NCBI RefSeq assembly: GCF_000426665.1
Contig: NZ_AUFU01000008.1
Coordinates: forward strand, 1-64,000
Direction: 5' to 3'
From: Centipeda artemidis DSM 19719
Lineage (GTDB): Bacteria; Bacillota; Negativicutes; Selenomonadales; Selenomonadaceae
Length of the DNA stretch: 64,000 nucleotides
Translations under genes and position numbers: made by a program
Notes under the pieces: model-generated
Told to the model about the DNA's origin: nothing
What the model saw: the letters and a program-made list of their open reading frames with translations, nothing else
Databases searched by the model: none
Shown here: in pieces, positions 35,547 to 59,712 of the stretch
Layout of the letters: the number at the start of each line of letters is the position of its first letter
Numbering within the stretch: position 1 is the stretch's first letter

Positions 35547-35581
35547 GTAGGACATTGACGAATGAAGAAAGGTTTGATTTC

Positions 35582-37783
35582 ATGCGTATTTCCGACATTC
35601 CTGCCGTCATCGCAAAAGAGCTTTCCGTCCGTCCGCAGCAAATCGATGCGGTCATCACGCTCCTAGACGACGGGAACACGATCCCCTTCATTGCCCGCTA
35701 CCGCAAGGAAGCAACAGGATCACTCGATGATGAAACGCTGCGCAGTGTCGAGACACGGCTGAGCTATCTGCGCGGTCTCGTCAAACGACAGGAGGAAGTC
35801 CTCGCGCGCATCGAGGAGCAGGGCAAACTCACGGACGAGCTGCGCGCCGCCGTTGAAGCGGCGGAAAAACTGCAAACGCTGGAGGATCTCTATCGCCCCT
35901 ACAAGCAAAAGAAGCGTACGCGGGCGTCGGTCGCACGGGCGCGCGGACTGGAACCGCTCGCAGACGCCATGCTCGTGCAGAAGGAAACAACCGGGACGCC
36001 CGAGGAGTACGCCGCCGCCTTTGTAAATCCCGCGCAGGAGGTACGGGCGCCGGCAGACGCACTCGCGGGTGCGCGCGATATTCTCGCCGAGACCATCATG
36101 GACGACGCATCGCTGCGCTCGCAGATGCGTGAATATTTTTGGAAAAATGCCGTCCTTGAGACGGCGCTGGACGCGGCGTCGGAGGACGCGCAGACATTCC
36201 AAATGTACGACAAGTACAGCGAACCCGTGCGCACGCTGCCGTCGCACCGCATCCTCGCCATCAACCGCGGTGAGAAGAAAAGCTGTCTCACCGTACGCGT
36301 CAATATCGAACACGAGAAAAATATCGAAACGATTGCTCGCCGTATCCTCCGGCAGCCTTCTATCTTTACCGCGGAGCTGCGCGCCGCCGTCGAGGACGGG
36401 TATAAACGCCTGCTCCTCCCCGCGCTGGAGCGCGAGCTGCGCGCGCGTCTCACCGAAGAGGCGGAGGAAAAGGCAATCAAAATCTTTGGTCAAAACCTGA
36501 AACAATTGCTCCTCCAACCGCCGCTCGCAGGACATGTCGTCATGGGGCTCGATCCCGGCTACCGCACGGGCTGCAAGGTCGCCGTCGTCGACGCGACAGG
36601 GCATGTCCGCGCAAGCGGCGTCGTGCAGGTCACGCAGAGCGATGCCGCCCGCCGCGCCGCCGCACAGCAGCTTCTCAGTCTCATCAAGGAGCACGGCGTC
36701 ACGCTCATCTCCATCGGCAACGGCACGGCTTCCTACGAGACGGAGCAGTTCACCGCAGCCCTCATCCGCGACAACAACCTCGCGAACGTCCACTACCTCA
36801 TCACGAACGAAGCGGGCGCATCCGTCTACTCCGCATCGGCGCTCGCAAAAGAGGAGCTGCCGGACTACGACGTGACGATTCGCGGCGCCGTCTCCATCGC
36901 GCGCCGCGTGCAGGATCCCTTGGCGGAGCTGGTCAAAATCGATCCGCAGGCGATCGGCGTCGGTCAGTATCAGCACGACGTCAGTCAAAAGGAACTCAAA
37001 GAGACGCTCGACGCCACCGTCGAGGATGCCGTCAACCACGTCGGCGTCGATCTCAACACGGCGTCCCCCGCCCTGCTCGGGCGCATCGCGGGCATCAATG
37101 CCGCCATCGCAAAGAACATCGTCGCATACCGCAACGAGCACGGCAAATTCACGAACCGCAGCACCCTGCACAAGGTCTCTCGTCTCGGCGACGCGGCGTT
37201 TACCCAGTGTGCAGGCTTTCTGCGCATCCGCGCGGGCGAAACGCCGCTCGACGATACGTCCGTACACCCCGAGTCCTATAACCTCGCGCGCGCCCTGCTC
37301 AGGGAGCTGTGCGCCGCGGAAGGCGATCTCACCGACCGTGCCGCACTCCCTGCCCTCGCGCTCAAAATTGCGCAAACGGACGCCGCTGCCCTTGCAAAGA
37401 AGCTCGGCGCAGGCGTTCCGACGGTCACGGACATCCTCAAGGCGCTCGCCCGTCCGGGACGCGACCCGCGCGAAGATCTGCCCGCACCGCTCACACGGCA
37501 AAACATCGTGAAGCTCTCCGACCTCGCCGTCGGCACCATCCTGCGCGGAACCGTACGCAACATCACGGATTTCGGCGCATTCATCGACATCGGACTGAAA
37601 CAGGCGGGGCTGCTCCACATCTCCGAAATGAGCGGACGCCGCGTGCGGCATCCGCTTGACGTCCTTTCGGTCGGCGACGTGCTCGACGTCATGATCATCA
37701 GCATTGACGAAACGCGCGGACGCATCGGACTTTCGCTCAAACAACTGCAAATGCAACGTGAAAAGGAAAAGAAACGCGCATGA
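35582..37783 (+). CDS. tex: Transcription accessory protein Tex (S1 RNA-binding)
   Basis: A 733-residue Tex protein. The N-terminal helical part begins ISDIPAVIAKELSVRPQQ and DGNTIPFIARYRKEATGSLDDE; the YqgF/RNase H-like domain has GLDPGYRTGCKVAVVD near residue 320; helix-hairpin-helix motifs lie near 490-560 (NTASPALLGRIAGINAAIAKNIV); the C-terminal S1 domain is GTILRGTVRNITDFGAFIDIG through HISEMSG. It binds RNA and is thought to aid ribosome or transcription-complex rescue. ATG 35582 follows AAAGG; the frame is open 9 codons farther upstream. The stop overlaps the next gene by 4 bases. Confidence 0.96.
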   Translation: MRISDIPAVIAKELSVRPQQIDAVITLLDDGNTIPFIARYRKEATGSLDDETLRSVETRLSYLRGLVKRQEEVLARIEEQGKLTDELRAAVEAAEKLQTLEDLYRPYKQKKRTRASVARARGLEPLADAMLVQKETTGTPEEYAAAFVNPAQEVRAPADALAGARDILAETIMDDASLRSQMREYFWKNAVLETALDAASEDAQTFQMYDKYSEPVRTLPSHRILAINRGEKKSCLTVRVNIEHEKNIETIARRILRQPSIFTAELRAAVEDGYKRLLLPALERELRARLTEEAEEKAIKIFGQNLKQLLLQPPLAGHVVMGLDPGYRTGCKVAVVDATGHVRASGVVQVTQSDAARRAAAQQLLSLIKEHGVTLISIGNGTASYETEQFTAALIRDNNLANVHYLITNEAGASVYSASALAKEELPDYDVTIRGAVSIARRVQDPLAELVKIDPQAIGVGQYQHDVSQKELKETLDATVEDAVNHVGVDLNTASPALLGRIAGINAAIAKNIVAYRNEHGKFTNRSTLHKVSRLGDAAFTQCAGFLRIRAGETPLDDTSVHPESYNLARALLRELCAAEGDLTDRAALPALALKIAQTDAAALAKKLGAGVPTVTDILKALARPGRDPREDLPAPLTRQNIVKLSDLAVGTILRGTVRNITDFGAFIDIGLKQAGLLHISEMSGRRVRHPLDVLSVGDVLDVMIISIDETRGRIGLSLKQLQMQREKEKKRA

Positions 37784-39567
37784 CACTCTTAGAACGTACC
37801 GTTCGGGACATCAAGGTTCCCGATCCGACGATTTCCGAAGGGATCAAAGAATCCCTCCTCACCCATCACCGCATCGATTTTGGACGTCTCACGGACGCCC
37901 TCGTCCGCTATATCCGCATCACGGGCGAGCGGCATCCCGCACCGCCGCAGACGAGTGTCGTCATCTCCTGCGCCGATCACGGCGTTGCCGCGGAGAGCGT
38001 CAGCGCCTATCCGCCCGAGACGACGCTCAACATGATGTGCAACTACCTCGTCGCACACGGCGGCGCCGCGAACGCGGTGGCGAATTATGCAAATGCAAAT
38101 CTCATCGTCGCCGATCTGGGCGTCAATGCCGATACCGCTCATATCCCGGGTCTCGTGCACCGCAGCATCGCGCGCGGCACGCAGAACATGACACAGGGCG
38201 CAGCAATGACGCGTGCGCAGGCAATCAAAGCCGTCGAGGCGGGCATAGAGCTTGCGGGCATCTGCGCCGACCGCGGCGATCGCTGCATCCTCCCGGGCGA
38301 AATGGGCATCTCCAACACAACCTCGAGCGCCGCTATCGTCGCCGCGATTCTAGGGCTCTCTCCCGAGGAGGTCACGGGACGCGGCGCGAACATCTCGGAC
38401 GCGCGTCTTGCGCATAAGATCGAGATCGTCCGTCGTGCGCTCGCGGTCAATACGCCCGATCCTGCGGACGGGCTCGACGTCCTCAGGAAAGTCGGCGGAT
38501 TTGAACTCGGATGCATTGCGGGCATCATCCTCGGCGCCGCCGCCCGCCGTATGCTCGTCATCCTTGACGGTGCAAACACGACCTCCGCCGCACTCGTCGC
38601 CCACGTACTTTGCCCCGACTGCGCATATTACCTGCTCGCCTCGCACGGCTCGCTGACCGAGCTGTCTCAGCCGCACGCGCTGCGCCGGCTCGGACTCACG
38701 CCCATGCTGCGGCTCGACATCCGCCTGAGCGAGGCGGCGGGATCGTCCATCGCACTTGACCATCTCCGACAAATGCTGTGCGTGTGGGATGCGCTCGACG
38801 GCAAAACCGCAGGTGCGGACGGCATTCACCCCGCCGTGCTCGAATCGGACGCGAACGCCGACGAGAGCGACAATATACGGCTCAAAATTCTCTCGCCGGA
38901 CGGGGCGGCAATAGACGCCTGTCAATATCGTTTGGACAACCTCGCAAAGCCCATTCACAGCCTCGGCTATCTCGAACGGATCGCTGTCGTTCTCGCAGGT
39001 GCAATGAGAACCCCGCAGCCACCCGTCGATACAAAGGCTGTGCTCATCCTCGCCGTCCGCGACACCGCGCTGCCTGCGCCGCAGAGTACCGCGCTTGTGG
39101 CGATGTGCTCATATGCCGGCATCCCCATATATGTCCTGCCGCTCCCGGATGAAATAACGGAGAGCGCACTCATCCGTCTGCATCGGAGCATCGAGCGCAT
39201 TGCCAAAGATGCCCCCATCCTCTTGATCGGCATGGAAGAGGACGGTTCCCCCGACCTGCGCATCGCATCGACGATCATGACAGCCGCCGCCAACGCGCGC
39301 AGTCTCATCATCCCCGCCGACGAGCCGACCGAAGACCGCGCCTGCCGGGTCTGCGAACCGTATCGCACCGTCGCCCCCTATATCCTCCATATCTTTTCCG
39401 ATATGATCAAACTTGATGCCAATCCTCCCATCGGCACCGCGGGATCGCTCGCGTTCGGCATCATACGCGCCGCCCTGCACATACTGAACGATATGAAAAC
39501 CTTCACCGAAGCGAATGTCGCCGTCGCCATCGACGGCGCGGGCGCGGGCAGACAGGTACGTGATTAA
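37780..39567 (+). CDS. Tandem CobT-like base phosphoribosyltransferase (fused ArsA/ArsB-like)
   Basis: A 595-residue protein, far longer than CobT (about 350). Residues 1-375 are a CobT domain: SCADHGVAAESVSAYPPETT, GEMGISNTTSSAA, LDGANTTSAALVAHVL, and the catalytic glutamate at residue 318 in LDIRLSEAAGSSIALDHL. From residue 384 a second, shorter CobT-like domain starts with the family N-terminal motif RLDNLAKPIHSLGYLERIAV and ends IGTAGSLAFGIIRAALHILN and MKTFTEANV, matching CobT start and end but without the glutamate. CobT activates the lower-ligand base of cobamides. The layout recalls ArsA/ArsB of Sporomusa ovata, which act as a pair on phenol and p-cresol. It overlaps tex by 4 bases (ATGA). 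Confidence 0.85.
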   Translation: MTLLERTVRDIKVPDPTISEGIKESLLTHHRIDFGRLTDALVRYIRITGERHPAPPQTSVVISCADHGVAAESVSAYPPETTLNMMCNYLVAHGGAANAVANYANANLIVADLGVNADTAHIPGLVHRSIARGTQNMTQGAAMTRAQAIKAVEAGIELAGICADRGDRCILPGEMGISNTTSSAAIVAAILGLSPEEVTGRGANISDARLAHKIEIVRRALAVNTPDPADGLDVLRKVGGFELGCIAGIILGAAARRMLVILDGANTTSAALVAHVLCPDCAYYLLASHGSLTELSQPHALRRLGLTPMLRLDIRLSEAAGSSIALDHLRQMLCVWDALDGKTAGADGIHPAVLESDANADESDNIRLKILSPDGAAIDACQYRLDNLAKPIHSLGYLERIAVVLAGAMRTPQPPVDTKAVLILAVRDTALPAPQSTALVAMCSYAGIPIYVLPLPDEITESALIRLHRSIERIAKDAPILLIGMEEDGSPDLRIASTIMTAAANARSLIIPADEPTEDRACRVCEPYRTVAPYILHIFSDMIKLDANPPIGTAGSLAFGIIRAALHILNDMKTFTEANVAVAIDGAGAGRQVRD

Positions 39568-44210: not shown

Positions 44211-44831
44211 ATGGAAGGTTTTTCTAGTGCAATGCATCTCTTTAAGAGCGGCGGTCTCGTTATGTATCCGCTGCTCCTGCTCTCCCTGATTACTTTTGCA
44301 ATTGCGGTGGAGCGTTTTTACTACTACCGCATCAACCGCAAGGGATCACGCGTATTTTTCCATGGTGTCTATCATGCTGCCGTGCAGAAGGATTTTGATA
44401 CCATAGAAAAGCTCTGTAAGGAGTTCCCATCCGCCATCAGCCGCGTCATCGAGAGCGGTCTCATGAACGCAGGGACGGAGACGACAATGAAGGGAGCGTT
44501 CTCCGATCGTATGTCGATGGAGGCGATCAACTTTCGCCGTTATCTCGACTATCTGAGTGCAATTGTAACCATCGCTCCGCTGCTCGGACTGCTCGGCACG
44601 GTCACGGGCATGATCCAGACGTTCAGCGTGCTCGACGAGGGCGGCGGTGCAGGCGCGATCACAGGCGGCGTCGGCGAGGCACTCGTTGCAACGGCATCCG
44701 GTCTTTGCGTTGCTATTATTGCATTCTGTGTCTATACCTATTTTAGCCATCAGCTTGACGCCATTGTTACGGATACGGAGCGTCTGTGCTCCACAGTCGT
44801 TACTGCAAAGAAAGAAAGCTGGGAAACATAA
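44211..44831 (+). CDS. exbB: ExbB/TolQ/MotA family proton channel
   Basis: A 206-residue membrane protein with three transmembrane segments: near residues 14-32 (VMYPLLLLSLITFAIAVERF), 120-140 (IVTIAPLLGLLGTVTGMIQTF) and 160-185 (EALVATASGLCVAIIAFCVY). The core motif PLLGLLGTVTGMI followed by GGVGEALVATASGL is diagnostic. With ExbD it forms the proton-driven motor that energises TonB. ATG 44211 follows ATGGAGG. Its stop overlaps the exbD start by one base. Confidence 0.95.
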   Translation: MEGFSSAMHLFKSGGLVMYPLLLLSLITFAIAVERFYYYRINRKGSRVFFHGVYHAAVQKDFDTIEKLCKEFPSAISRVIESGLMNAGTETTMKGAFSDRMSMEAINFRRYLDYLSAIVTIAPLLGLLGTVTGMIQTFSVLDEGGGAGAITGGVGEALVATASGLCVAIIAFCVYTYFSHQLDAIVTDTERLCSTVVTAKKESWET

Positions 44832-45241
44832 TGAATTTTGGCAATCATCGGCTGAAAAAGAAGCCGGAATTTATGATTATTCCGATGATCGATATTATCT
44901 TCTTCCTGCTTGTCTTCTTCATGATGAACAGTTTGCAGACGGTCGCGCAGAAAGCGCTTGCCGTACAGCTTCCTCAAGCTCAGTCGGCATCTGCGCCCGC
45001 ACAGCTCCCAATCATCATGACACTCGATGAAGAAGGTCATATCACTATTGACAACAACCCCGTGAGCATCACGGAGTCAGCGGCAATCATGAAGAGCCGT
45101 ATGCAGGCAAATCCGGATGCTGCAGTCGTTTTGCAGGCGGACAAACGTACGGCACACGGGCAGGTCGTCGCAGTCATGGATATGCTTAAAGGAGCGGGGG
45201 TAAAGCGGCTCTCGATTGCCGCAGAACAAAAGAAGGGATAG
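44831..45241 (+). CDS. exbD: ExbD/TolR family biopolymer transport protein
   Basis: A 136-residue protein with one N-terminal membrane segment containing the key proton-carrying aspartate: MIIPMIDIIFFLLVFFMM (Asp near residue 24). The rest is a small periplasmic domain ending VVAVMDMLKGAGVKRLSIA, typical of the family. Start ATG overlaps the exbB stop (TAATG). The next gene, tonB, follows after 4 bases. Confidence 0.95.
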   Translation: MNFGNHRLKKKPEFMIIPMIDIIFFLLVFFMMNSLQTVAQKALAVQLPQAQSASAPAQLPIIMTLDEEGHITIDNNPVSITESAAIMKSRMQANPDAAVVLQADKRTAHGQVVAVMDMLKGAGVKRLSIAAEQKKG

Positions 45242-45245
45242 AGAT

Positions 45246-46073
45246 ATGGATCGAAATCTCTCATGGAGAAAGGCCTATATCGTCTCCGTTCTGCTGCATC
45301 TCGTGCTGTTTGCCCTCCTGGCAATCGGACTAACGGTTGTTGTTAAACAACAGGAACAGCAGGTTTACGTCGTCGACCTTGCAACATCTGATTTTAGCGA
45401 AGGTGGCGGCGGCAGTGCGGGCGGAGGCGGTGAAAGTGGTGGTGGAAACGAGTCGCTGTTCCCCGAGCCATTAAAGGCTGAAGAGGTTGCCAAACGTGTT
45501 GAAGCGGTGCAACAGACTGTTCCCACACCGGTCACAACAACCGATACGCCCCAAACGACACCAACACCGGACGCAGTCACGCTGCCTACGCCGGGATCGT
45601 CATCAACTACATCCGAATCGTCTGAAACCGGCTCCAATACCGGTAGTAATACCACCGGCGGCAGTAATAATGGCGGCAGCAACGGTGGCGGCGGCGGTGG
45701 AAGTAACGGCGGCGGCGGTGGCGGCGGCAGCAACGCTGGTGGTGGAGGCGGAAATGATGGCGGCGGTGGCGGCGGCAGCAACGGCGGCGGTGTCCAAAAG
45801 GCGCCCTTCGATTATGAGGGGTTCCGCCGCGCAGTCGATGCAAATAAGCAATATCCCTATATGGCAATTAAACGTCGTTTGGAAGGTCGCCCCATTGTTA
45901 CAGTGACAGTGTCTGCTTCCGGATCGATTGCGGGAGTCTCATTATCGAGTCCGTCCGGTCATAGTATGCTGGATGAGGCTGCTGTAAATGCAGTTTATGC
46001 CGTTGGATCCTATCCAAATCCCACGAATGACACAGTTACTTTTAATGTTCCCATATCTTTCACGTTGAACTAA
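45246..46073 (+). CDS. tonB: TonB energy transducer with polyglycine linker
   Basis: A 275-residue TonB. One membrane anchor (AYIVSVLLHLVLFALLAIGL, about residues 9-28, with the conserved His), a periplasmic spacer, and a C-terminal TonB domain from about residue 195 (KQYPYMAIKRRLEGRPIVTV, SSPSGHSMLDEAAVNAV). The spacer is unusual: instead of the Pro-Glu/Pro-Lys rod it has Gly/Ser/Asn repeats at residues about 128-182 and a shorter Gly-rich patch at 52-70. TonB carries motor energy to outer-membrane receptors for iron complexes and cobalamin, which supports a diderm cell. ATG 45246 follows AAGGGATAG. No receptor gene is in the window. Confidence 0.93.
   Translation: MDRNLSWRKAYIVSVLLHLVLFALLAIGLTVVVKQQEQQVYVVDLATSDFSEGGGGSAGGGGESGGGNESLFPEPLKAEEVAKRVEAVQQTVPTPVTTTDTPQTTPTPDAVTLPTPGSSSTTSESSETGSNTGSNTTGGSNNGGSNGGGGGGSNGGGGGGGSNAGGGGGNDGGGGGGSNGGGVQKAPFDYEGFRRAVDANKQYPYMAIKRRLEGRPIVTVTVSASGSIAGVSLSSPSGHSMLDEAAVNAVYAVGSYPNPTNDTVTFNVPISFTLN
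45655..45792 (+). repeat. Gly/Ser/Asn-coding GGC-rich tandem repeat in tonB
   Basis: A run of imperfect GGC/GGT triplet repeats broken by AGTAAC/AGCAAC units, coding about six blocks of Gly(3-7)-Ser-Asn. It is prone to slippage, so length may vary between strains without breaking frame. Confidence 0.85.
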
Positions 46074-46567: not shown

Positions 46568-47179
46568 TCACACGGACAGATGCGCCGTGTCGTTCATCAG
46601 CGTTATCGCGGCGAAGCCGTCGTCCTCGAAGCGGATGCGGTTGACCGCAGTATTGAACTGTGAGACGTGCCAGATCGCGCGCACGGGCATGGAGAGAATA
46701 TCCGCGAACAGAATGCGGATGGACGCCCCGTGCGAGATGAGCACAATGCGCCTGCCCTTATTCTGCGCGGCGATCTCGCGGACACGCCCTGCGACGCGGC
46801 GGCGGAACTCTTGGAAGTTCTCGATCCCCGGAATATCGATGGATTCAGGGTCTCTGTAGAACTGCTTCATGAGATCGGGCGTTTCCTCATTGATTTCGCT
46901 GAAATAGCGTCCTTCCCATGTGCCGAAGTTCAGTTCCCGGAGCGCCGCGTCCTTCTCTACGGGAAGCCCAAAACGCGCGGCGAGGGGCTGTGCCGTTTCC
47001 ACGGCGCGAATGAGATCGCTCGCATAGATTTTATCGATGTCGTCGAGCGCTATATTTTTCCCCAGCAGTTCCGCCTGCTCATGCCCCGCTGCGGAAAGAG
47101 GAACATCCGAATGCCCTTGGAACCGCCCCGTGATATTCCACTCCGTCTCCCCGTGCCGAATGATGATGATTTCCGTCAT
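46568..47179 (-). CDS. cobC: Histidine phosphatase, probable alpha-ribazole phosphatase (CobC)
   Basis: A 203-residue phosphoglycerate-mutase-like phosphatase. The catalytic histidine is in IIIRHGETEWN (residues 5-15), the partner acid in ALRELNFGTWEG and the second histidine in VLISHGASIRI. Alpha-ribazole phosphatases have this sequence type, and the position in a cobamide operon between the threonine kinase and crcB supports removing phosphate from the lower-ligand nucleotide or from cobamide phosphate. Substrate is inferred mainly from context. Confidence 0.85.
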   Translation of the reverse strand: MTEIIIIRHGETEWNITGRFQGHSDVPLSAAGHEQAELLGKNIALDDIDKIYASDLIRAVETAQPLAARFGLPVEKDAALRELNFGTWEGRYFSEINEETPDLMKQFYRDPESIDIPGIENFQEFRRRVAGRVREIAAQNKGRRIVLISHGASIRILFADILSMPVRAIWHVSQFNTAVNRIRFEDDGFAAITLMNDTAHLSV

Positions 47180-47202
47180 TTCTCTCGCCCCTTCATCCTA
47201 CT

Positions 47203-48081
47203 CTAGGCTCTGATCTCGCAGATGACACCGCCCGAGATCAGCCGCACCGTCTGCATATACCTGTACCGTCCCGCAAACTCCTGCGCGATCTGCTCCGTCC
47301 GCCGCGCGATGTCCCCGGCGGGCAGTGCCGATTCCCACAGCACGCCGACAACGGTGCCGCTGTGTGCGACGTTGACGCCGAGCGCGCCTTTCCCCTTGGC
47401 AAGGGCGATAAATTCGTCCAGCCCCTCTTTCGGCAGATGCTCTTGATTGAGCCGCGCACTCGCCGTCGCCACCTGTCCGAGCAAAATTTCCTGCCGATAG
47501 TCCGCCGTATGAAACGCGCTGTCCACGGTGTCAAGCAGGCGGCGATACTCGTCATCTTGACTGCCGCCGGCGCTCTTGCTTTGATAATACGAAATCGTAT
47601 CCACTTCGCCGCCCACATCGAAAATGGAGATGCCGATGAGCGGCACGTTTCGGTACTGCCCAAAGAGTGCGCCCGTCGTATGACTGACATGCGACAGTCC
47701 CTCAAAGGCGATGCCGTCGCTCGGCTCGATGGCGATGGCGATGTCCATGAGCTCCCGCGCCGTCAGCTCCCGTCCAAAAGCACGCGCCGCCGCGTATGCG
47801 CACGCGGTGATGTCCGCACTGGAGGATGCCATGCCCTTGCCCTGCGGGACAGGAGACTCGAGCCGAATCCCCCACGGCAAGGCGTCTTTCCCAACGAGGG
47901 CAAGCGCACGTGTGACCGCTTCCTGCGCCTTTGTCCCAAGTCCCTGCATCCCGGTGAACGCGTCGGACACGGTCGCCGTCGCATAGACGCTGATGGGGGC
48001 AGTCACGAGGAACGGAGTCCCTGCAATAGAACCTTCGATGAGTTCGCCGCAGGATGCGGGCGCTTTTACAATGATTTCCAT
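47203..48081 (-). CDS. pduX: GHMP kinase, probable L-threonine kinase PduX
   Basis: A 292-residue GHMP-family kinase. It begins MEIIVKAPASCGELIEGSIA and has the ATP-binding motif PVPQGKGMASSSADITACAYA near residues 80-100. This type phosphorylates L-threonine to make the precursor of the aminopropanol arm of cobamides, which fits its place behind cobS. The next enzyme, threonine-phosphate decarboxylase (CobD), is not in the window. Start ATG 48081 follows GGAG and overlaps cobS by 16 bases; the frame is open for 110 more codons upstream as an antisense-like extension without family match. Confidence 0.85.
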   Translation of the reverse strand: MEIIVKAPASCGELIEGSIAGTPFLVTAPISVYATATVSDAFTGMQGLGTKAQEAVTRALALVGKDALPWGIRLESPVPQGKGMASSSADITACAYAAARAFGRELTARELMDIAIAIEPSDGIAFEGLSHVSHTTGALFGQYRNVPLIGISIFDVGGEVDTISYYQSKSAGGSQDDEYRRLLDTVDSAFHTADYRQEILLGQVATASARLNQEHLPKEGLDEFIALAKGKGALGVNVAHSGTVVGVLWESALPAGDIARRTEQIAQEFAGRYRYMQTVRLISGGVICEIRA

Positions 48082-48872
48082 AACAACTCCAATACTGAGC
48101 ACATCGTCTGCATCGAGGCGGCAATGAGCGCTTGCTGCGTCGATACGACGGAAAAAACAAATAAAACTACGGTCTCCGTCAGCACGGTTGTCGCGCCGTA
48201 GACATCCCCCGTCACGCCGCCGAGCTGCCCGGTGATGAACCGGCAGAATAAGAGCGCGAACAGGACGCCCGCGAAGAGCGCGAGCCACGCCCCCATGCCG
48301 AATGGCAGGACGAGCAGTATAGTCGTCACGGCGGCAATGAGGAGCGTCTGCCGATCTGCCATATCCGCAAAGATTTTCCCCAGCCCATCCTTGCGCGCAT
48401 AGGGGAAACAAGCGATGGAAATCACCATGGCAAGCCGCCCGATGATCGGCATGACGAAAAGCGCGGGAATCAGCAGCAAAGGGAACATATCGGCGAGCAG
48501 TGCGTACTGGATGAACATCATCGCGGCGATGGTCACGACGCCGAACGAGCCGACGCGGCTGTCTTTCATGATCTCGAGCTTGCGCTCCCGTTCGCGCCCC
48601 GAAAACACGCCGTCCGCCGTATCCATCAGACCGTCCGCGTGCAGTCCGCCCGTCAGGATGAGCGGGAGGAGCATCAGCAGGACGCTCGTCAGCGTATGCG
48701 TGCCGATCGTATATAGGAGCACATACGCGGCAAGCGCATAGCAGAGCCCGAGTACCAGTCCGACGAGCGGGAAAAAACGTGTACTGCGCCCAAAATCCTC
48801 AGCCGTCCACTCCGTCTGGCACACCAGGCGAATCCGTGTGAGAAATTGAAGCCCGATCAAAAAGGAATGCAT
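48066..48872 (-). CDS. cobS: Adenosylcobinamide-GDP ribazoletransferase (cobalamin synthase)
   Basis: A 268-residue membrane enzyme with six or seven transmembrane segments. The signature GGLHADGLMDTADGVFSGRERERKLEIMKDSRVGSFG-type block (given in part: LHADGLMDTADGVF, MKDSRVGSFG) is exact for CobS. It joins adenosylcobinamide-GDP to alpha-ribazole (or its phenolic counterpart). ATG 48872 follows AGAGGC. It lies 9 bases behind cbiB. Confidence 0.96.
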   Translation of the reverse strand: MHSFLIGLQFLTRIRLVCQTEWTAEDFGRSTRFFPLVGLVLGLCYALAAYVLLYTIGTHTLTSVLLMLLPLILTGGLHADGLMDTADGVFSGRERERKLEIMKDSRVGSFGVVTIAAMMFIQYALLADMFPLLLIPALFVMPIIGRLAMVISIACFPYARKDGLGKIFADMADRQTLLIAAVTTILLVLPFGMGAWLALFAGVLFALLFCRFITGQLGGVTGDVYGATTVLTETVVLFVFSVVSTQQALIAASMQTMCSVLELLWKSL

Positions 48873-48881
48873 AGAAAGCCT

Positions 48882-49838
48882 CTACATGTAAAGAGAAATC
48901 ATATAATAAAAGCACAGATACAATATCGCAGCCGTCCCCATCAGGCGAATCGCGCCGAGGATGTGTTTTGGGCGAATATCAACGTGCGCATCACCCATGT
49001 AGGCGCGAAAGTGCCGCTCGCCGAAGTAGTAATTCACGCCGCCGAGACGGATGTGCAGCGCGCCCGCAACGGGCGCCTCGGCATAGCCGCCGTTTGGACT
49101 TGGATGCCCCGACGCGTCGCGTGCCATGATATACATCGCGTTGCGCCCATCATAGCCGAGCAGGAATGCCGCCATGACAAAGAGCATCCCCGTGATGCGC
49201 GCAGGGACGAAACTCAGCACGTCGTCCACGCGCGCCGCCATGCGTCCAAAATAGAGGTAGCGTTCGTTCTTGTAGCCGATCATGGAGTCCATCGTATTTG
49301 CCGCACGATAGAGCACCGCGAGCGGCGCGCCTCCAATCGCAAAGAAAAAGAGAGGCGCGATCACGCCGTCCACCGTATTCTCCGCAATCGTTTCGATCGC
49401 CGCGCGCGCCACATCCGCTTCGTCGAGCCGATCCGTATCGCGCCCGACGATCCATCCGACGCGTTCGCGCGCGCCCGGAAGATTTCCTGCGGCAAGCAGG
49501 GCATAGATGTCGCGCCCCGCCTTTGCCAGCATGTGCGGCGAAATCGTAAAGTAAAGCAGAACCGCGCTCACAGCATCGACGCCCCACGATACGGGGAGCC
49601 GCTGCGCTGCGAGAAGCAGCCCCTCGGCAACGGCATAGGAAAAACAGAGAATGAGCGCCGTGAGTACGGCGCCCATTGCCAGTCGTCGTTCATTCCCGCC
49701 CTGCTCCGGATAGAGCAAACGCTCCAGCCACGCAATCAGACGCCCGAGCAGTGCGACGGGATGCCACCGCGTCTGCGGATCTCCAAAGATCATATCGAGA
49801 CCGAACGCACACATCGCGACCAATGCCGCACTCATCAT
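48882..49838 (-). CDS. cbiB: Adenosylcobinamide-phosphate synthase CbiB
   Basis: A 318-residue polytopic membrane protein. LDMIFGDPQTRWHPVALLGRLIAWLE near the start, GRDTDRLDEADVARAAIETIAENTVDGVIAPLF in the middle (in part: AIETIAENTVDG) and MDSMIGYKN match CbiB/CobD. It attaches aminopropanol or its phosphate to adenosylcobyric acid. The start overlaps cbiP by 4 bases. Confidence 0.95.
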   Translation of the reverse strand: MMSAALVAMCAFGLDMIFGDPQTRWHPVALLGRLIAWLERLLYPEQGGNERRLAMGAVLTALILCFSYAVAEGLLLAAQRLPVSWGVDAVSAVLLYFTISPHMLAKAGRDIYALLAAGNLPGARERVGWIVGRDTDRLDEADVARAAIETIAENTVDGVIAPLFFFAIGGAPLAVLYRAANTMDSMIGYKNERYLYFGRMAARVDDVLSFVPARITGMLFVMAAFLLGYDGRNAMYIMARDASGHPSPNGGYAEAPVAGALHIRLGGVNYYFGERHFRAYMGDAHVDIRPKHILGAIRLMGTAAILYLCFYYMISLYM

Positions 49839-51376
49839 GCGTCCGCCCCCATGCCGACAATCGCGCGCAGCTTCTCCATATCAAGGCTTTTGCGCACGGT
49901 CTCGGCGAGACGGTCATAGGCGCGCTCCTTCTCTGCGCGGTAGCGGTACTGCACAGGAAGGGACGCAAGTCCGCGCCGCGTACGCAGACGATTGATGATG
50001 CCGCGCCGCAGCTCGTCGTCGTCGAAGATGCCGTGAATATACGTCCCCGCAACGAGTCCATCCGCCGAGAGAGCGCCGTCGACGGCATCCGCAGGCGCGC
50101 CGCCCGCCGCAACAATCCGGAACGGACGGTGCACCTCCTCGGTAAAGACGGTCTCGCCCATGTGGATCTCATATCCGGGCAGATCGCGCCCCGCAAGGCG
50201 CTCGCCAAGGAAGGGAAAATCCTCGCACTGCGCCGTGACCTGACGCAGACGCTTATGCGCCGCAAATGTCGTCTCGCTCGGAAGGTAGCCGAATCCCGCA
50301 ATCTCATCGTGCTCCGACTCCGTATGCAGCGGGTCGCGCACCTTGCGCCCGAGCATCTGATAGCCGCCGCAGATGCCAAAGAGCGGCGTCCCGGCGGCGG
50401 CTGCACGGCGAATCGCCTCTTCCAATCCGCATTGACGAATATAGAGGAGATCCTCCGTCGTATTCTTCGAACCGGGGAGAAGAATGAGGTCGGGACTGCC
50501 CAGCTCCGCGGGCGTACTCACATAGTAGAGTGCGACATCCGGCTCGTCTGCGAGCGCGTCAAAATCGGTAAAATTCGACAGCTTCGGCGTACGAATCACG
50601 GCGATACGAATCTTTTCAGCATCCCCCGCGTCGGCATGGGTGCTCTTCTCGTCAAGCGATACCGAGTCCTCTTCGTCAATGCCGAGCTGTTCAATGTGCG
50701 GAACGACGCCGAGGACGGGTTTGCCCGTCTTTTTCTCCAGGAACTCCAGCGCGGGCGTCAGGAGCGTGACATCCCCGCGGAATTTATTGATCACAAGCCC
50801 CTTGACAAGCATGCGTTCCTCCTCGTCGAGCAGTTCGAGTGTCCCGACGAGGGAAGCAAGCGCGCCGCCGCGGTCGATGTCCGCAATGAGGAGCACGGGT
50901 GCGTTCAGATGTTTTGCCACGCGCATATTGACAATATCGTTCGCCTTGAGATTGATCTCGGCGGGACTGCCCGCGCCCTCGATCACGATCAGCTCGTACT
51001 CATCCTGCAATCGTTTGAGAGCTTCTTCCACCGCGCCCCACGCCTTCAACGAGTATCCCGTATGATACTCGCGCGCACTCATATTGCCGACCGGCTCACC
51101 CATGATGACGACCTGCGACTGCGCGTTGCCCGTGGGTTTCAGGAGGACGGGGTTCATGTCGATCATCGGCGCGAGCCCTGCCGCCTCTGCCTGCGCGACC
51201 TGCGCGCGTCCCATCTCGCGCCCGTCGAGTGTGACATAGGAGTTCAGCGCCATATTCTGCGCCTTAAACGGCACAATGCGCCGTCCCTCCTGCAGGAAGA
51301 TACGGCAGAGAGCCGTCGTCAGAATGCTCTTGCCCACATGAGAACTCGTTCCCATCAGCATGATCGTCTTTGCCAT
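49835..51376 (-). CDS. cbiP: Cobyric acid synthase CbiP
   Basis: A 513-residue glutamine-dependent amidase. The N-terminal ATP domain has MLMGTSSHVGKSILTTALCR and PFKAQNMALNS; the C-terminal class I-like glutaminase domain has LFGICGGYQMLGRKV with the cysteine near residue 340 and the histidine in VAGTYIHGIFDD. It amidates four side chains of adenosylcobyrinic acid diamide. It lies one base behind cobU and overlaps cbiB. Confidence 0.96.
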   Translation of the reverse strand: MAKTIMLMGTSSHVGKSILTTALCRIFLQEGRRIVPFKAQNMALNSYVTLDGREMGRAQVAQAEAAGLAPMIDMNPVLLKPTGNAQSQVVIMGEPVGNMSAREYHTGYSLKAWGAVEEALKRLQDEYELIVIEGAGSPAEINLKANDIVNMRVAKHLNAPVLLIADIDRGGALASLVGTLELLDEEERMLVKGLVINKFRGDVTLLTPALEFLEKKTGKPVLGVVPHIEQLGIDEEDSVSLDEKSTHADAGDAEKIRIAVIRTPKLSNFTDFDALADEPDVALYYVSTPAELGSPDLILLPGSKNTTEDLLYIRQCGLEEAIRRAAAAGTPLFGICGGYQMLGRKVRDPLHTESEHDEIAGFGYLPSETTFAAHKRLRQVTAQCEDFPFLGERLAGRDLPGYEIHMGETVFTEEVHRPFRIVAAGGAPADAVDGALSADGLVAGTYIHGIFDDDELRRGIINRLRTRRGLASLPVQYRYRAEKERAYDRLAETVRKSLDMEKLRAIVGMGADA

Positions 51377-51377
51377 A

Positions 51378-51950
51378 CTAAATATCCTCCGCCAATTTCT
51401 TGATGTCCACGGGAATGCCGCAGGTCACGAGATATACCATATCCGCGGATGCGGCGAGCCGCTGATTCGCCAGCCCCGCCATATCCCGGTAAAGGCGCGC
51501 GAGCTTGTTCTCCGGCACAATGCCTGTCCCCACCTCGTTCGTGACAAAGACGGTCACGGCGTCGACGGACTGTGCGGCGTGAATCAGATCGTCCATCCGT
51601 GCGCGCACATGCGCGGCAAACGAATCCGCCTGCTGCTCCTCCTCCGAATACTGCAAAATATCATTGCTGAGAAACATTGTAATGCAGTCAAAGAGAATGA
51701 CGCCGTGCCGCTCCCCCGCCTCTCGCAGAGCCTCGGGCGCCTCATAAGGCGCCTCATAGGTCATCCAGTCGGCGGGGCGGCGGGAGCGATGGAGACGCAC
51801 GCGCTGCTGCATCTCGTCGTCATAGATTTGCGACGTTGCGATATAGGCAACGGACGTGCCATGCTCCCGCGCAGCGTGTGCCGCATAACGCTCCGCAAAC
51901 GCGGACTTGCCCGAGCGCGCGCCGCCCGTGACGAGGATTATTTGTCCCAT
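51378..51950 (-). CDS. cobU: Adenosylcobinamide kinase/guanylyltransferase CobU
   Basis: A 190-residue bifunctional enzyme. P-loop TGGARSGKSAFAERYAA is at the start, and VRLHRSRRPADWMTYE holds the histidine that becomes guanylylated; LFDCITMFLSND and FVTNEVGTGIVPEN follow. It phosphorylates cobinamide and adds GMP. ATG 51950 follows GGAGG; a GTG lies 9 bases upstream. It overlaps the end of cbiA by 13 bases. Confidence 0.95.
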   Translation of the reverse strand: MGQIILVTGGARSGKSAFAERYAAHAAREHGTSVAYIATSQIYDDEMQQRVRLHRSRRPADWMTYEAPYEAPEALREAGERHGVILFDCITMFLSNDILQYSEEEQQADSFAAHVRARMDDLIHAAQSVDAVTVFVTNEVGTGIVPENKLARLYRDMAGLANQRLAASADMVYLVTCGIPVDIKKLAEDI

Positions 51951-53302
51951 GTACGGCACGCCTCCACGAACGACGCGGCAACCGCGGGACAGCCCGCAAA
52001 ATGCAGGTGGAGGTAACTGCCGAGCGTCCTTTGAACAATGCGCCCCGCAGGATACTGCGCCCCGTTGCGCATCTTGGTAAAGATAAAGGGACGCGCGGTC
52101 TCCCCGACGTCCGCTTCCTCCACGGAAAAATGGAACTCGTGCCCGTGCAGAGGAAGCCCTGCCGCACCAAATACGGTATCCATCGCCTGCACGGCGTCCA
52201 CATAGCCGACCATCTGAAGTTTCTCAGTCATACGCGCCGTCCCGGGAAACACGCCCGCCATTTGATGCGACGTTCCGGCGAAATCCACAAGGTGCGACAT
52301 CAGATACATATAGCCGCCGCACTCGGCATAGATCGGCATTCCCCGCTCCGCCGCTGTGCGAATCGACGCGCGCATAGACGTGTTTGCCGCGAGCTGCGCG
52401 GCAAACATCTCCGGGAATCCACCGCCGATGATCAGTCCGTCTACGTCCGGAATCTCGGCGTCATGCAGGGGGCTAAATGGGACGAGCTGCGCCCCGCAGC
52501 CCTCGAGCTCGGCAAGACTCGCGGCGTAATAAAAGGAAAACGCATCGTCGCGCGCAATCCCGATGCGGCAAGAGGTTTTCACATCCCGGTGCGTTCCCGG
52601 CACATAGTCGAGCGGCGGCGCACTGCGCGCCAGTTCCAAGATGCGCGCGATGTCAAGTCTCGCCTCAACCTGTGCACCGATGGCGCGCACCGTCTCCGCC
52701 GCCTCGTTCTCCTCCACGGGCGTTAGCCCGAGATGTCGCTCAGGGAGCGCGAGCGCGGCATTGCGGCGGAGCGCGCCAAAGACGGGCATATCGATGCCCG
52801 CCATTGCCGTTCGAATCATCTCTTCATGCGTCTCACTGCCAAGGCGATTGATGAGAACGCCCGCAAGACGGACGTCCTCGTCATACACACGAAAGCCGAG
52901 CGCGGTTGCCGCGGCAGATGCTCCTACCGACTTTGCATCAATCACGAGCAATACGGGAGCGTCGAGAGCCTTTGCAATCGACGCCGTAGAGCTGATGCCT
53001 TTGCGCCCGCCGTCGTAGAGCCCCATGACGCCCTCGATAACCGCAACGTCCGCGCCCGCACATTCACGCGCAAATATCTCCGTGAGCCGAGATTCGGGAA
53101 CGAGCCATGTATCGAGATTGTGCCCCGCACGACCGCTCGCCATACGGTGATAGCCGAGATCGATGTAGTCGGGTCCCACCTTGAACGACTGCACGGTCAG
53201 CCCCTTGGCGTGCAGCGCCGCGAGGAGCCCCGTGACGAGCGTCGTCTTGCCGCCGCCCGATTGCGTTGCCGCAACGACGATGCGCGGGATATTCCACTCC
53301 AT
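51938..53302 (-). CDS. cbiA: Cobyrinate a,c-diamide synthase CbiA
   Basis: A 454-residue glutamine-dependent amidase. The ATP domain has VVAATQSGGGKTTLVTGLL and QSFKVGPDYIDLGYH; VIEGVMGLYDGG is near residue 90; the glutaminase domain has PIYAECGGYMYLMSHL with the cysteine near 325 and the closing LHLHFAGC. It amidates side chains a and c of (cobalt-)cobyrinate. ATG 53302 is chosen because GAGAGGAG lies before it. It lies 18 bases behind cbiC. Confidence 0.95.
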   Translation of the reverse strand: MEWNIPRIVVAATQSGGGKTTLVTGLLAALHAKGLTVQSFKVGPDYIDLGYHRMASGRAGHNLDTWLVPESRLTEIFARECAGADVAVIEGVMGLYDGGRKGISSTASIAKALDAPVLLVIDAKSVGASAAATALGFRVYDEDVRLAGVLINRLGSETHEEMIRTAMAGIDMPVFGALRRNAALALPERHLGLTPVEENEAAETVRAIGAQVEARLDIARILELARSAPPLDYVPGTHRDVKTSCRIGIARDDAFSFYYAASLAELEGCGAQLVPFSPLHDAEIPDVDGLIIGGGFPEMFAAQLAANTSMRASIRTAAERGMPIYAECGGYMYLMSHLVDFAGTSHQMAGVFPGTARMTEKLQMVGYVDAVQAMDTVFGAAGLPLHGHEFHFSVEEADVGETARPFIFTKMRNGAQYPAGRIVQRTLGSYLHLHFAGCPAVAASFVEACRTWDK

Positions 53303-53320
53303 AAGCGCTCCTCTCACCGA

Positions 53321-53956
53321 TCAGGGACGCGTATTGTCGATCAGATACATCATCGCATTGACCGCCGCCGCCGCAATGGGGCTGCCGCCCTTCGTTCCCT
53401 CTACCGTGATATAGGGAACGATGCCGTTCGCCGCAAGCTCCGCCTTCGACTCCGCCGCACCGACAAAGCCGACAGGGATGCCGACGATGCAGGCGGGACG
53501 AATCCCCTCTTCGCGCACCATGCGAAGCACTTCAAAGAGCGCCGTCGGCGCGTTGCCGATGGCAACAATGCTGCCGTTCAAATCCTTACCGAATTGACGC
53601 ATCGCGATCATCGAGCGTGTGATGCCCTCCTGCTTCGCGCGGACGGCGACGTCCGGATCGGCAACGAGGCAGTGTACCTCTCCGCCAAAGGACGCGAGCT
53701 TCTTCTTATTGATGCCCGTGCGCACCATTTCAACGTCCGTATAGATGTGCGCCCCCTTGCGCAGTGCGTCCATCGCAACCGCGATCGCCTCCGGATGCAC
53801 GCGGATGATCGGCGCATAGCCGACGTCGCCGGACGCGTGGATGAGACGCGAATACACCTTCGTCGCCGCCTCGTCGAGCCCCAGCTCCGCAAGATGCGGT
53901 GCGATCAGTTCCATACTGCGGTTCTCAATAGCCATCGGCTCTTTGATAAAATCCAT
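53321..53956 (-). CDS. cbiC: Cobalt-precorrin-8 methylmutase CbiC
   Basis: A 211-residue CbiC. The catalytic histidine is in KVYSRLIHASGDVGYAPII (near residue 40). RPACIVGIPVGFVGAAESK and TVEGTKGGSPIAAAAVNAM match the family. It moves the methyl group from C11 to C12 to give cobyrinic acid. ATG 53956 follows AGGAG; the frame is open 11 codons farther upstream. It lies 20 bases behind cbiJ. Confidence 0.95.
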   Translation of the reverse strand: MDFIKEPMAIENRSMELIAPHLAELGLDEAATKVYSRLIHASGDVGYAPIIRVHPEAIAVAMDALRKGAHIYTDVEMVRTGINKKKLASFGGEVHCLVADPDVAVRAKQEGITRSMIAMRQFGKDLNGSIVAIGNAPTALFEVLRMVREEGIRPACIVGIPVGFVGAAESKAELAANGIVPYITVEGTKGGSPIAAAAVNAMMYLIDNTRP

Positions 53957-53976
53957 TGTGATTCTCCTATTCTTTC

Positions 53977-54759
53977 TTACGATTCGCACTTGGAATCGAC
54001 AAATTTCAACACTTCCTCAAATGTATGCGCCAGATGCGGATAGTCCAGTACGGGGCGGTCGATGACGACCACGGGCAGACCGAGATCCTCCGCCGCTTGG
54101 AATTTCTCATCCGTACCGCCGACCATACCGCTGTTCTTAGTCACGATCACGTCGGCATCGTATTTTTCATACATACTGCGGTTCATTTCCCGCGAAAAAG
54201 GCCCCTGCATCGCGATGATCTGCGCGGGCGTCAGCCCGAGTTTTTCGCAGAGCTCCACGACCTCCGCCGTCGGCAGGACGCGCGCGATCAAGGTGCAGTC
54301 CTTCAGCGCCGGCGCCTTGACGAACCGCTCGAGATTACGGCTGCCCGTCGTTAAAAACACCGTTTTCCCAAGACGGGCGCACGTCTCGCACGCCTCCTCA
54401 TAACCGTGCACGAGATGCACGTTCTCGTAGGAAATATCGGTCACGTCGCGCTCATAGCGGATGTACGGAAGCCCCGCCGCCGCACATGCCGTCATCGCGT
54501 TGCGCGACACATTGACAGCATAGGGATGCGTCGCATCGACAAAGATGCGAATGTCATGTTCCTTGAAAAAATCCAATAAGCCCTGCTCGTCAAGCGGCGT
54601 GTCGTTGATGATGAGCTTTCCGCCGCCCTCGGTGCGCTGTGCGGCAAGAAGCTGCTCGCCATAGGAACTGACGACGGACGCCGCTACATCATGCCCTGCG
54701 GCGCAGAGACGGCGCACGAGTTCGCGCCCGTCCTGCGTTCCCGATGCTACAAAAATCAC
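53977..54759 (-). CDS. cbiJ: Cobalt-precorrin-6A reductase CbiJ
   Basis: A 260-residue NAD(P)H-dependent reductase. MIFVASGTQDGRELVRRLCAAG is the dinucleotide-binding start, DATHPYAVNVSRNAMTAC is the family signature and VVIDRPVLDYPHLAHTFEEV closes it. It reduces the macrocycle one step before CbiT/CbiE methylation. It overlaps cbiH by 4 bases. Confidence 0.94.
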   Translation of the reverse strand: MIFVASGTQDGRELVRRLCAAGHDVAASVVSSYGEQLLAAQRTEGGGKLIINDTPLDEQGLLDFFKEHDIRIFVDATHPYAVNVSRNAMTACAAAGLPYIRYERDVTDISYENVHLVHGYEEACETCARLGKTVFLTTGSRNLERFVKAPALKDCTLIARVLPTAEVVELCEKLGLTPAQIIAMQGPFSREMNRSMYEKYDADVIVTKNSGMVGGTDEKFQAAEDLGLPVVVIDRPVLDYPHLAHTFEEVLKFVDSKCES

Positions 54760-55511
54760 AGTCCAGGCTCCCTCTTTTGATAGCCGCGCGGCGTAATCAT
54801 CCAGTCGCCGACGGAGCGCGTCTTAGAGTTGCCGATGATGACGAGCGAGAACATATTGATGTCCTCATTCGTGAAATGACCAAGCGTCGAGATGAGCACC
54901 GCCTCATTGTCGCGGCTCGCGCCCGTCACGACGCCGACAGGCGTCTCCGGCGAACGATAGCGCAGGAAGATGTCCTGCACGGCGTTGATCTGACCGACGC
55001 GCTTGTGGCTGCGCGGATTGTAGAGCGCTGCGACAAAGTCGCCCTTTGCCGCAAGCTCCGCACGCTCCTGAATGATCTCCCACGGCGTCAGGAGGTCGGA
55101 AAGGCTGATGACGACAAAGTCGTGCATGATGGGCGCGCCCAGCAGCGCCGCCGCCGCACTCATCGCCGAGACGCCGGGAACGATCCCACCGAACTCGGGG
55201 CGCTCCGCCTCGTCGATCTTGACCAGCAGCTCGAGCACGAGCCCCGCCATACCGTAAATTCCGGCGTCGCCACTCGAGATGACGACGACCGTTTCCCCAT
55301 CCATCGCTTCCTTGAGCGCTGCGCGGCAGCGGTCGATTTCCTGCGTCATGCCCGTGTCGAGGACTCTCTTATCCTTGATAATATCCTCGATCAGCTCCAC
55401 ATAGCGCTTGTACCCGACGACCACCGTCGCCTCCTCAATTGTGCGCCGTGCGCGGTACGTCATATCGTCCAGACTGCCGGGGCCGATGCCCACAACGCTT
55501 ATTTTTCCCAT
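54756..55511 (-). CDS. cbiH: Cobalt-factor III C17-methyltransferase CbiH
   Basis: A 251-residue SAM-dependent tetrapyrrole methylase. SVVGIGPGSLDDMTYRARR at the start, VVGYKRYVELIEDIIKDKRV, VVISSGDAGIYGMAGLVLEL and NPRSHKRVGQINAVQDIFL mark the CbiH/CobJ branch. It methylates C17 and contracts the ring. It overlaps cbiG by 13 bases and cbiJ by 4. Confidence 0.94.
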   Translation of the reverse strand: MGKISVVGIGPGSLDDMTYRARRTIEEATVVVGYKRYVELIEDIIKDKRVLDTGMTQEIDRCRAALKEAMDGETVVVISSGDAGIYGMAGLVLELLVKIDEAERPEFGGIVPGVSAMSAAAALLGAPIMHDFVVISLSDLLTPWEIIQERAELAAKGDFVAALYNPRSHKRVGQINAVQDIFLRYRSPETPVGVVTGASRDNEAVLISTLGHFTNEDINMFSLVIIGNSKTRSVGDWMITPRGYQKREPGL

Positions 55512-56593
55512 AAGAGTGCCACCGTCACTTTCCCTAATACCGTTCTGCCGAGCGCCATGCGCCCGCCGCTTTTTCCTGCCGCACAGAGCGCCGCCGCCTC
55601 GGAGACATTCCCGACGCCGATCGTCTGCTTGACAAAATTAGACTCTTTTAGTCCATATTGTTCCACCATCTGCGCGAGTTCTTCGCGCGCGTAAAAGATA
55701 ATCTCGCGGTTCAGTGTGCGAGCCGCCGCGAGGAGTCCCGGCTCGTCACATTTGACCTCGGTACTTGCGAGCACTGAGATCGCCGAGACGTCACGTCCGA
55801 TCTGCGCGCACGCTTCGGTCAGCGCACGCATAATCTCCTCCTCCGGCACACCCGCGCGGCATCCGACGCCCGCAATCAGGCGGCGCGGCACGAGATAGAG
55901 CGTCCGCATAGGCATCTCCGACGCGTCCGGAACACGCTCCGCCGCAGTGACAACCACGCGGTACTGTGCCTCCTCCGGAGGCGGAAGAATCCCCTCAAAC
56001 GGTGCAGCCGAAATCCCCTCGCCGCACAGTCCTGCCTCATAAAATTCATGCTGCGCTACCGCCCTATCGAGGAAGTAATCGAGCCATTTCCCCTCCAGCA
56101 GTGCACTGTTCAGCACCTGTATCGCCGCCTTTGGCTCGGGGCGCAGTGCGAGCCGTGCCGCAATCGCATCGGGGGCGCGTACGCCTGTCACGTCCGTCGC
56201 CGTCGTGATGACGGGATCGGCGCCGATTACTGCGCAGAGCCGCTGCGTATACTCGTTTGCCCCGCCGACATGCCCCGATAACAGGCTGATGCCGTGCCGC
56301 CCCTGCTCGTCAAAGACGAGAACGGCGGGGTCGTACAGCTTGCTGTTGATATAGGGCGCGATCATGCGGACGACAATTCCCGTCGCCATTACACAGACAA
56401 GCGTGTCATAGCGTCCGAACGCGTCCTGCATGACATCTGCAAGCCGAACGAAATACCGTACCTTGCGCTCGGCAGGTACCTGCTCCCGCATCCGCTCAGG
56501 GAAAAACAGCGTCCCTTTGCCGCCTTCAGCATCGTGGAGACGCAGTGCCAAGCGTACACCGCCCTGCGTCAGCGCAAAGAGCGCGGTTCTCAT
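55499..56593 (-). CDS. cbiG: Cobalt-precorrin-5A hydrolase CbiG
   Basis: A 364-residue CbiG with the expected domains: an N-terminal part (MATGIVVRMIAPYINSKLYDPAVLV, then LLSGHVGGANEYTQRL), a middle segment and the C-terminal domain (GVGCRAGVPEEEIMRALTEA, VLASTEVKCDEPGLLAAA). It opens the lactone and releases acetaldehyde, a step specific to the anaerobic pathway. It overlaps cbiF by 4 bases and cbiH by 13. Confidence 0.94.
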   Translation of the reverse strand: MRTALFALTQGGVRLALRLHDAEGGKGTLFFPERMREQVPAERKVRYFVRLADVMQDAFGRYDTLVCVMATGIVVRMIAPYINSKLYDPAVLVFDEQGRHGISLLSGHVGGANEYTQRLCAVIGADPVITTATDVTGVRAPDAIAARLALRPEPKAAIQVLNSALLEGKWLDYFLDRAVAQHEFYEAGLCGEGISAAPFEGILPPPEEAQYRVVVTAAERVPDASEMPMRTLYLVPRRLIAGVGCRAGVPEEEIMRALTEACAQIGRDVSAISVLASTEVKCDEPGLLAAARTLNREIIFYAREELAQMVEQYGLKESNFVKQTIGVGNVSEAAALCAAGKSGGRMALGRTVLGKVTVALLWEK

Positions 56594-57345: not shown

Positions 57346-57354
57346 CTGCTCTCC

Positions 57355-58571: not shown

Positions 58572-58573
58572 CG

Positions 58574-59680: not shown

Positions 59681-59712
59681 AGTTCGCCTCATTCTGTCAG
59701 AAAAACAGAGAT

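Follow-up and report, generated by a model that had tools for sequence, protein, structure and literature searches.

A gene fusion joining ArsA and a reduced ArsB in one chain across the Selenomonadaceae suggests a candidate route to phenolyl cobamides

Among members of the CobT family, the closest described systems to the gene reported here are ArsAB of Sporomusa ovata (PDB 4hdk, 4hdm, 4hdn, 4hdr and 4hds), the tandem arsA/arsB genes of Veillonella and CobT of Salmonella (PDB 1jh8 and 4kqj). The S. ovata enzyme consists of two chains, encoded by overlapping tandem frames (L133) and including a full-length ArsB, and Veillonella also carries two genes, with ArsB frames of 361-388 amino acids; V. 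parvula has been reported to make phenolyl cobamide (PMC8123684). Salmonella CobT is a homodimer in which both chains contribute to the base pocket, with E317 acting as the general base and a role also given to E174 (PMC9561151). Here, we describe a gene of Centipeda artemidis DSM 19719 (NCBI RefSeq assembly GCF_000426665.1, contig NZ_AUFU01000008.1), found in a stretch of 64,000 nucleotides (positions 1 to 64,000 of the forward strand; hereafter, the window), which encodes an ArsA-like half and a shrunken ArsB-like half in one chain. While the two-chain ArsAB is already known and its structure solved, a widespread fused variant is what is new.

Like S. ovata ArsAB, the C. artemidis protein has an ArsA-like N-terminal half that holds the catalytic glutamate, an ArsB-like C-terminal half and the tail motif, but it is a single chain and its ArsB part is much reduced. 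It shares with the Veillonella pairs an ArsA half of the same clade and the ArsB tail, and with Salmonella CobT the fold and the catalytic glutamate; by contrast, the canonical CobT proteins of the phylum lack the ArsB tail (0/15) and form a separate clade. As the locus has one frame where the ArsAB heterodimer is recognized by two adjacent genes, we classify it as a single-chain variant and not as a standard ArsAB. A natural fusion including CobT is also indicated by the title of a report on BluB/CobT2 of Propionibacterium freudenreichii (PMC4657239), although BluB and CobT are joined there and two CobT homologues here. No report of a fused ArsAB was found among the open-licence PubMed Central hits considered, most of them at the level of titles or the first lines of abstracts. 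A survey of arsAB required two adjacent cobT genes and arrived at 27 species (PMC6461909), a criterion by which a fused gene is skipped by construction, and the table of predicted ArsAB carriers in PMC8123684 has no Selenomonas among its 15 strains. The parts of the C. artemidis gene are as follows (all on the + strand).

37780..39567, +: fused arsAB gene, 595 amino acids (open frame; PF02277 match)
37780..38799, +: ArsA-type catalytic half, residues 1-340 (phmmer, VIA-align, tree, ArsA-type positions)
38299..38301, +: codon of Glu174, equivalent to E174 of Salmonella CobT
38731..38733, +: codon of Glu318, equivalent to the catalytic E317 of Salmonella CobT
38800..38901, +: linker, residues 341-374
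38902..39018, +: ArsB half, N-terminal part of the small helical domain, residues 375-413 (phmmer match to ArsB 11-71)
39019..39399, +: ArsB half, shrunken alpha/beta (Rossmann-like) remnant, residues 414-540 (strands and helices in the AlphaFold2 model)
39400..39564, +: ArsB half, C-terminal helix and MKTF..VAVAIDGAGAGRQ tail, residues 541-595 (phmmer match to ArsB 285-347)

The gene is a single open frame of 595 codons, from an ATG at 37780 to a stop at 39567. Its product matches PF02277 (DBI_PRT) with 365.6 bits, the best stretch being residues 27-331, and residues 361-595 alone still match with 56.7 bits (cut-off 22.6), the best stretch covering profile positions 3-56. Both of the PF02277 matches in the 2.35 Mb genome lie inside the fused gene, which is therefore the sole gene of this family. 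The protein also exceeds the cut-off of the NCBIfam CobT equivalog TIGR03160 (346.3 vs 319.3 bits), a score that does not separate ArsA from CobT. Glu174 and Glu318, aligned with E174 and E317 of CobT, are invariant in 55/55 aligned fused proteins; since both are common to ArsA and CobT, they are not specific to the ArsA subfamily. The C-terminal half carries the motifs LDNLAKPIHSLGYLERIAV and GSLAFGIIRAALHILN, followed by the conserved tail, and the second catalytic glutamate has been lost: the equivalent column (551) holds isoleucine in the C. artemidis protein and glutamate in 1 of 60 alignment rows (L126). A preliminary description, made from the DNA sequence of the window, had proposed a 595-residue chain with one CobT-family domain keeping its catalytic glutamate at residue 318 and a second, shorter domain with both family motifs and no such glutamate, and both features were borne out. 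The same architecture was present in 14/14 genomes of the genus, that of C. artemidis DSM 19719 included, which excludes chance; 11 of the others align in one piece, with 61-71% identity, and two more in two pieces.

For the N-terminal half, kinship with ArsA was seen in sequence, structure and tree. With phmmer, residues 1-333 matched S. ovata ArsA at 339 bits, with ArsB second at 183 bits, and VIA-align superposed this half on ArsA (4hdm_A) with Z 50.6 and a root-mean-square deviation of 1.3 Å over 329 aligned residues (51% identity). In a tree of 84 rows, 24 fused N-terminal halves and 18 ArsA proteins formed one clade (Shimodaira-Hasegawa-like approximate likelihood ratio test support of 100), from which the 15 canonical CobT proteins stood apart (support 96). 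The fused rows represented 16 of the 59 fused loci with named organisms, 7 further loci and the window; the CobT rows were the 15 even-numbered of 30 CobT loci of the phylum, and three Veillonella loci (L136, L139 and L140) were omitted. All of the positions that separate ArsA from CobT were of the ArsA type in the C. artemidis protein (11/11), these positions having been picked on the same alignment, with the window included. By sequence, then, the N-terminal half is a member of the ArsA clade. In the VIA-align results, the rows for archaeal CobT span both halves of the fused protein.

The C-terminal half is homologous to ArsB but much shorter. Its phmmer matches are split, with residues 372-432 and 532-595 corresponding to the two ends of ArsB, and 99 residues lie between the two matched stretches, compared to 213 in ArsB. 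AlphaFold2 models had a mean predicted local distance difference test score (pLDDT) of 93.0 and a predicted template modelling score (pTM) of 0.94 for the whole chain (55 fused sequences, from 54 of the 59 loci and the window) and 91.6 and 0.88 for the C-terminal half alone (46 sequences, from 45 of the 59 loci and the window), with the alpha/beta remnant compact and confidently predicted and pLDDT of 61-67 in the blocks covering residues 341-370 of the linker. The pTM of the whole chain suggests that the orientation of its two halves is predicted with confidence. In a Foldseek search with the C-terminal model, four ArsB chains took ranks 1-4. The model aligned with residues 2-333 of an ArsB chain at Z 21.9 and 2.5 Å over 215 residues, and lower structural matches were 1jh8 as the best CobT (Z 20.1) and ArsA 4hdn_A (Z 18.5). 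A C-terminal DGxG tail, which is an ArsB signature found in the present analysis and not taken from print, is present in the C. artemidis protein, in 91/92 fused entries (77 distinct C-termini, some genes being entered twice; L066 is the entry without it) and in 18/18 ArsB, compared to 0/18 ArsA and 0/15 CobT. In the tree, 18 ArsB and the C-terminal halves of nine other fused proteins lie beyond a further branch with support of 100, where they are intermixed with mostly modest support. The ArsB origin of the C. artemidis C-terminal half thus follows from the split phmmer matches, the fold and the DGxG tail. The preliminary description had suggested a single-chain ArsA-ArsB, a view that these data support, and had given folding of the second half as an unrelated domain as a refuting outcome; as the model is nearest to ArsB, this half is instead a shrunken CobT-family domain.

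That description had also suggested a search for fused copies elsewhere in the class, and these were found across the family and beyond it. All of the 107 family genomes searched (completeness of at least 90%) matched the fused alignment, and in 99 of them the best match lay in one open frame of at least 590 amino acids; in five of these 99 (G459, G449, G251, G448 and G258) one in-frame stop was flagged within the matching stretch, and in another (G456) the match extends to the contig end. Seven of the eight genomes with a shorter frame carry minimal forms, consisting of ArsA and the ArsB small domain only: all five genomes of one genus (g4), with frames of 484-512 amino acids, and one form each from two other genera (g11 and g24), both apparently with a damaged N-terminus in draft contigs and, in the case of g24, without the tail as well. 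In the eighth (G268), two frames together make up an ordinary long form. A further genome of the family, G297, which at 84% completeness falls under the 90% limit, had no PF02277 match in the class search. In at least 15 family genomes, the fused gene is accompanied by another, separate CobT-family copy, in frames of 333-472 amino acids. Among the best 80 of 123 relatives with names, 59 loci were fused, including Selenomonas, Centipeda, Schwartzia, Mitsuokella, Anaerovibrio, Propionispira and one Propionispora, and 21 were tandem pairs, including Sporomusa and Veillonella; the closest of these 80 is Selenomonas sp. F0473 (85% identity in the N-terminal and 55% in the C-terminal half), and further near relatives include one oral taxon (L071). 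Seven more family codes of the class (f2, f5, f10, f14, f17, f24 and f30) likewise include fused forms. A single origin of the fusion, with the 24 fused rows constrained together among 48, was rejected under the model used (approximately unbiased test, p = 0.000131), so fusion, or fission, probably occurred more than once. One metagenome bin labelled Acholeplasmataceae (L124) has an arsA and a short arsB; its ArsA groups with Sporomusa-type sequences, and the label or the bin may therefore be wrong.

The fused proteins form a series of reduction, from 709 amino acids in L058, with a near-complete ArsB half, through 680-685, 657-662 and 626-640 to 581-635 in the genus of C. artemidis and finally to the minimal forms, in which the whole ArsB alpha/beta domain is gone and the small helical domain remains. 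Shrinkage does not need fusion, as short ArsB frames also occur in unfused pairs (L120, 267; L124, 290; L135, 291; L122, 310; and L147, 326 amino acids); in L120 and L124, arsA and arsB share a frame and are separated by one stop only. Constraint along the gene is uneven. From 14 sequences of the genus (91 pairs, of which only those with a synonymous rate, dS, below 2 were used, 37 to 86 by region), rough median ratios of nonsynonymous to synonymous rates (dN/dS) were 0.107 in the catalytic half (mean identity 0.80), 0.709 in the linker (0.27), 0.155 in the first part of the small domain (0.77), 0.372 in the alpha/beta remnant (0.46) and 0.145 in the C-terminal helix and tail (0.76), indicating that constraint on the small domain comes close to that on the catalytic half, while the remnant is relaxed. 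The 46-row C-terminal alignment has 14 invariant columns, and every one of them falls within the small-domain stretches. Given that both chains form the base pocket of Salmonella CobT, the simple reading of why the small domain is kept would be that it touches the ArsA pocket.

We consider it quite probable, as the best reading of the gene, that it encodes a single-chain ArsAB whose miniaturised ArsB part fills out the base pocket of ArsA. The ArsA half would provide the catalytic apparatus and move phosphoribose from nicotinate mononucleotide to the lower-ligand base, while the C-terminal half would be a degenerate ArsB with a dead active site of its own and a shrunken alpha/beta domain. Its small helical domain and tail would have been retained as the partner's share of the base-pocket wall, as in the CobT dimer; fusion would lock the pairing at 1:1 and reduction would discard the remainder of ArsB. 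The two halves would be expected to pack in a dimer-like manner, and the enzyme may use phenol or p-cresol, probably alongside benzimidazoles, like its S. ovata counterpart. We put phenolic base use at somewhat better than even, given the kinship with ArsAB and the complete set of ArsA-type positions.

Several observations weigh against this account, most of them concerning the substrate. What speaks for phenolic use is kinship, and S. ovata ArsAB itself also takes 5,6-dimethylbenzimidazole (PMC8123684; title of PDB 4hdr). Of the three substitutions of the p-cresol-bound Salmonella CobT variant named in PDB titles (S80Y/Q88M/L175M), only the position of Tyr77 tends to separate ArsA from CobT, and tyrosine is found there in 2/15 canonical CobT proteins and in Thermus CobT; the positions of Met85 and Met175 hold methionine in 15/15 CobT. 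Neither HydG (best 17.7 bits) nor ThiH (36.2 bits) gave a match above the model cut-off in the genome, and hence there is no obvious internal source of p-cresol by those routes. With regard to the ArsB half, the tree tool flags long branches for the ArsB side, dS, with medians of 1.0-1.3, approaches saturation, which together with the 37 to 86 usable pairs of 91 makes the dN/dS ratios rough, and in the closest pair (L035/L036) dN and dS of the remnant are about equal (0.041 and 0.039). Pocket residues were dropped as proof of phenolic use because they do not discriminate.

In one alternative, the protein is a relative of single-chain ArsAB that has lost phenolic use and activates adenine or imported benzimidazoles, the ArsB half serving only for stability. 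With no other PF02277 gene found in the genome, this one has to serve any cobamide that the cell produces, and no base is pointed to by BluB, which had no match above cut-off in the genome (best 23.3 bits), or by the ThiC-like Bza model TIGR04386, which had no match; in addition, the ArsB-matched stretches are separated by less than half of the residues found in ArsB, and phenolic use is not established by the pocket residues. We nevertheless regard this alternative as rather unlikely, since the ArsA-type positions, albeit chosen on the same alignment, are all kept and Tyr77 is invariant; moreover, the relatives with a separate CobT-family copy would fit a special role of the fused gene there, although not in this genome. 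That the C-terminal half has acquired a new role, for example as a sensor or as a binding domain for another ligand, and no longer acts as an ArsB partner, would be in line with the compact, confidently predicted fold of the alpha/beta remnant. But it is this remnant that evolves faster and is absent from the minimal forms (g4, g11 and g24), while conservation lies in the partner part, making such a role very improbable. Least credible is a recent tandem duplication of cobT in this one genome, with the second copy decaying and functionless: the absence of the catalytic glutamate and the loss of much of the second domain could be read in this way, but the halves belong to two old subfamilies, the family as a whole retains the architecture and purifying selection acts on the small domain. 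Self-duplication of CobT was also rejected by the ArsA and ArsB matches in phmmer, by the tree and by the tail signature. Within the single-chain ArsAB reading, the further proposal of the preliminary description that fusion itself had broadened the base pocket found no support, as split tandem ArsA proteins carry the same ArsA-type residues.

A base activator of this kind would serve the cobamide cluster that lies in the window.

46568..59692, -: cobamide (cob/cbi) cluster, with CobC-like, GHMP kinase, CobS, CbiB, CbiP, CobU, CbiA, further cbi, CbiF, CbiT and CbiD genes

When ten frames of this cluster were compared to NCBIfam, eight exceeded the curated cut-off (CobS, CbiB, CbiP, CobU, CbiA, CbiF, CbiT and CbiD), while the CobC-like and GHMP kinase frames were below it; we take the latter to be PduX, and the further cbi frames are presumed to be cbi genes. 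There is no cobT inside the cluster. Methylmalonyl-CoA mutase had three matches in the genome, and such mutases of other bacteria have been reported to bind phenolyl cobamides in vitro, although growth of Sinorhizobium meliloti needed high amounts (PMC6759758). As a separate observation, the absence of a TIGR04386 match and the ThiH score below cut-off raise the possibility that the strain depends on imported thiamin or its precursors.

Reported proportions of phenolyl cobamides are 20-34% for the bovine rumen and 16% for human feces, and the producers named in the available text of PMC8123684 are S. ovata and V. parvula only. The fused gene suggests that such phenol-type relatives of vitamin B12 may be made by common mouth and rumen bacteria, namely Selenomonas and its kin. 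If the fused form does accept phenolics, the set of predicted phenolyl cobamide producers would grow by a whole family, including Selenomonas ruminantium (L087, L093, L096 and L102), and the minimal forms would represent a ready deletion series on what ArsB is for. More tentatively, and with slightly less than even confidence, we propose that phenolyl cobamides are made throughout the Selenomonadaceae by a one-chain ArsAB, that the small helical domain of ArsB alone could be the minimal partner for a phenol-accepting pocket and that rumen Selenomonas may be a main source of these cobamides in the bovine rumen.

Outside of this family of genomes, CobT matches were also seen inside an 808-amino-acid frame (G405:C152:27548-28501) and a 505-amino-acid frame (G421:C1:1742704-1743711) from other families of the phylum, which are possibly other CobT fusions. 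No Rfam family, riboswitches included, was found in the window at gathering score. Two further neighbours of the fused gene were noted.

35555..37783, +: tex gene, directly upstream of the fused gene and overlapping it at ATGA
44211..46073, +: ExbB/ExbD/TonB-like set

The ATG of the fused gene shares the ATGA with the stop of the upstream frame, which we take to be tex from its translation, and an AAGGA stretch is located approximately 12 nt upstream of the start. A tex gene was present at 41 of the best 80 of 123 named loci and lay within 60 nt upstream of the arsA start at 33 of these 80 loci, all 33 being fused and none split. The set at 44211-46073, presumably encoding ExbB/ExbD/TonB-like proteins, includes a TonB-like protein with a long glycine/asparagine-rich linker.

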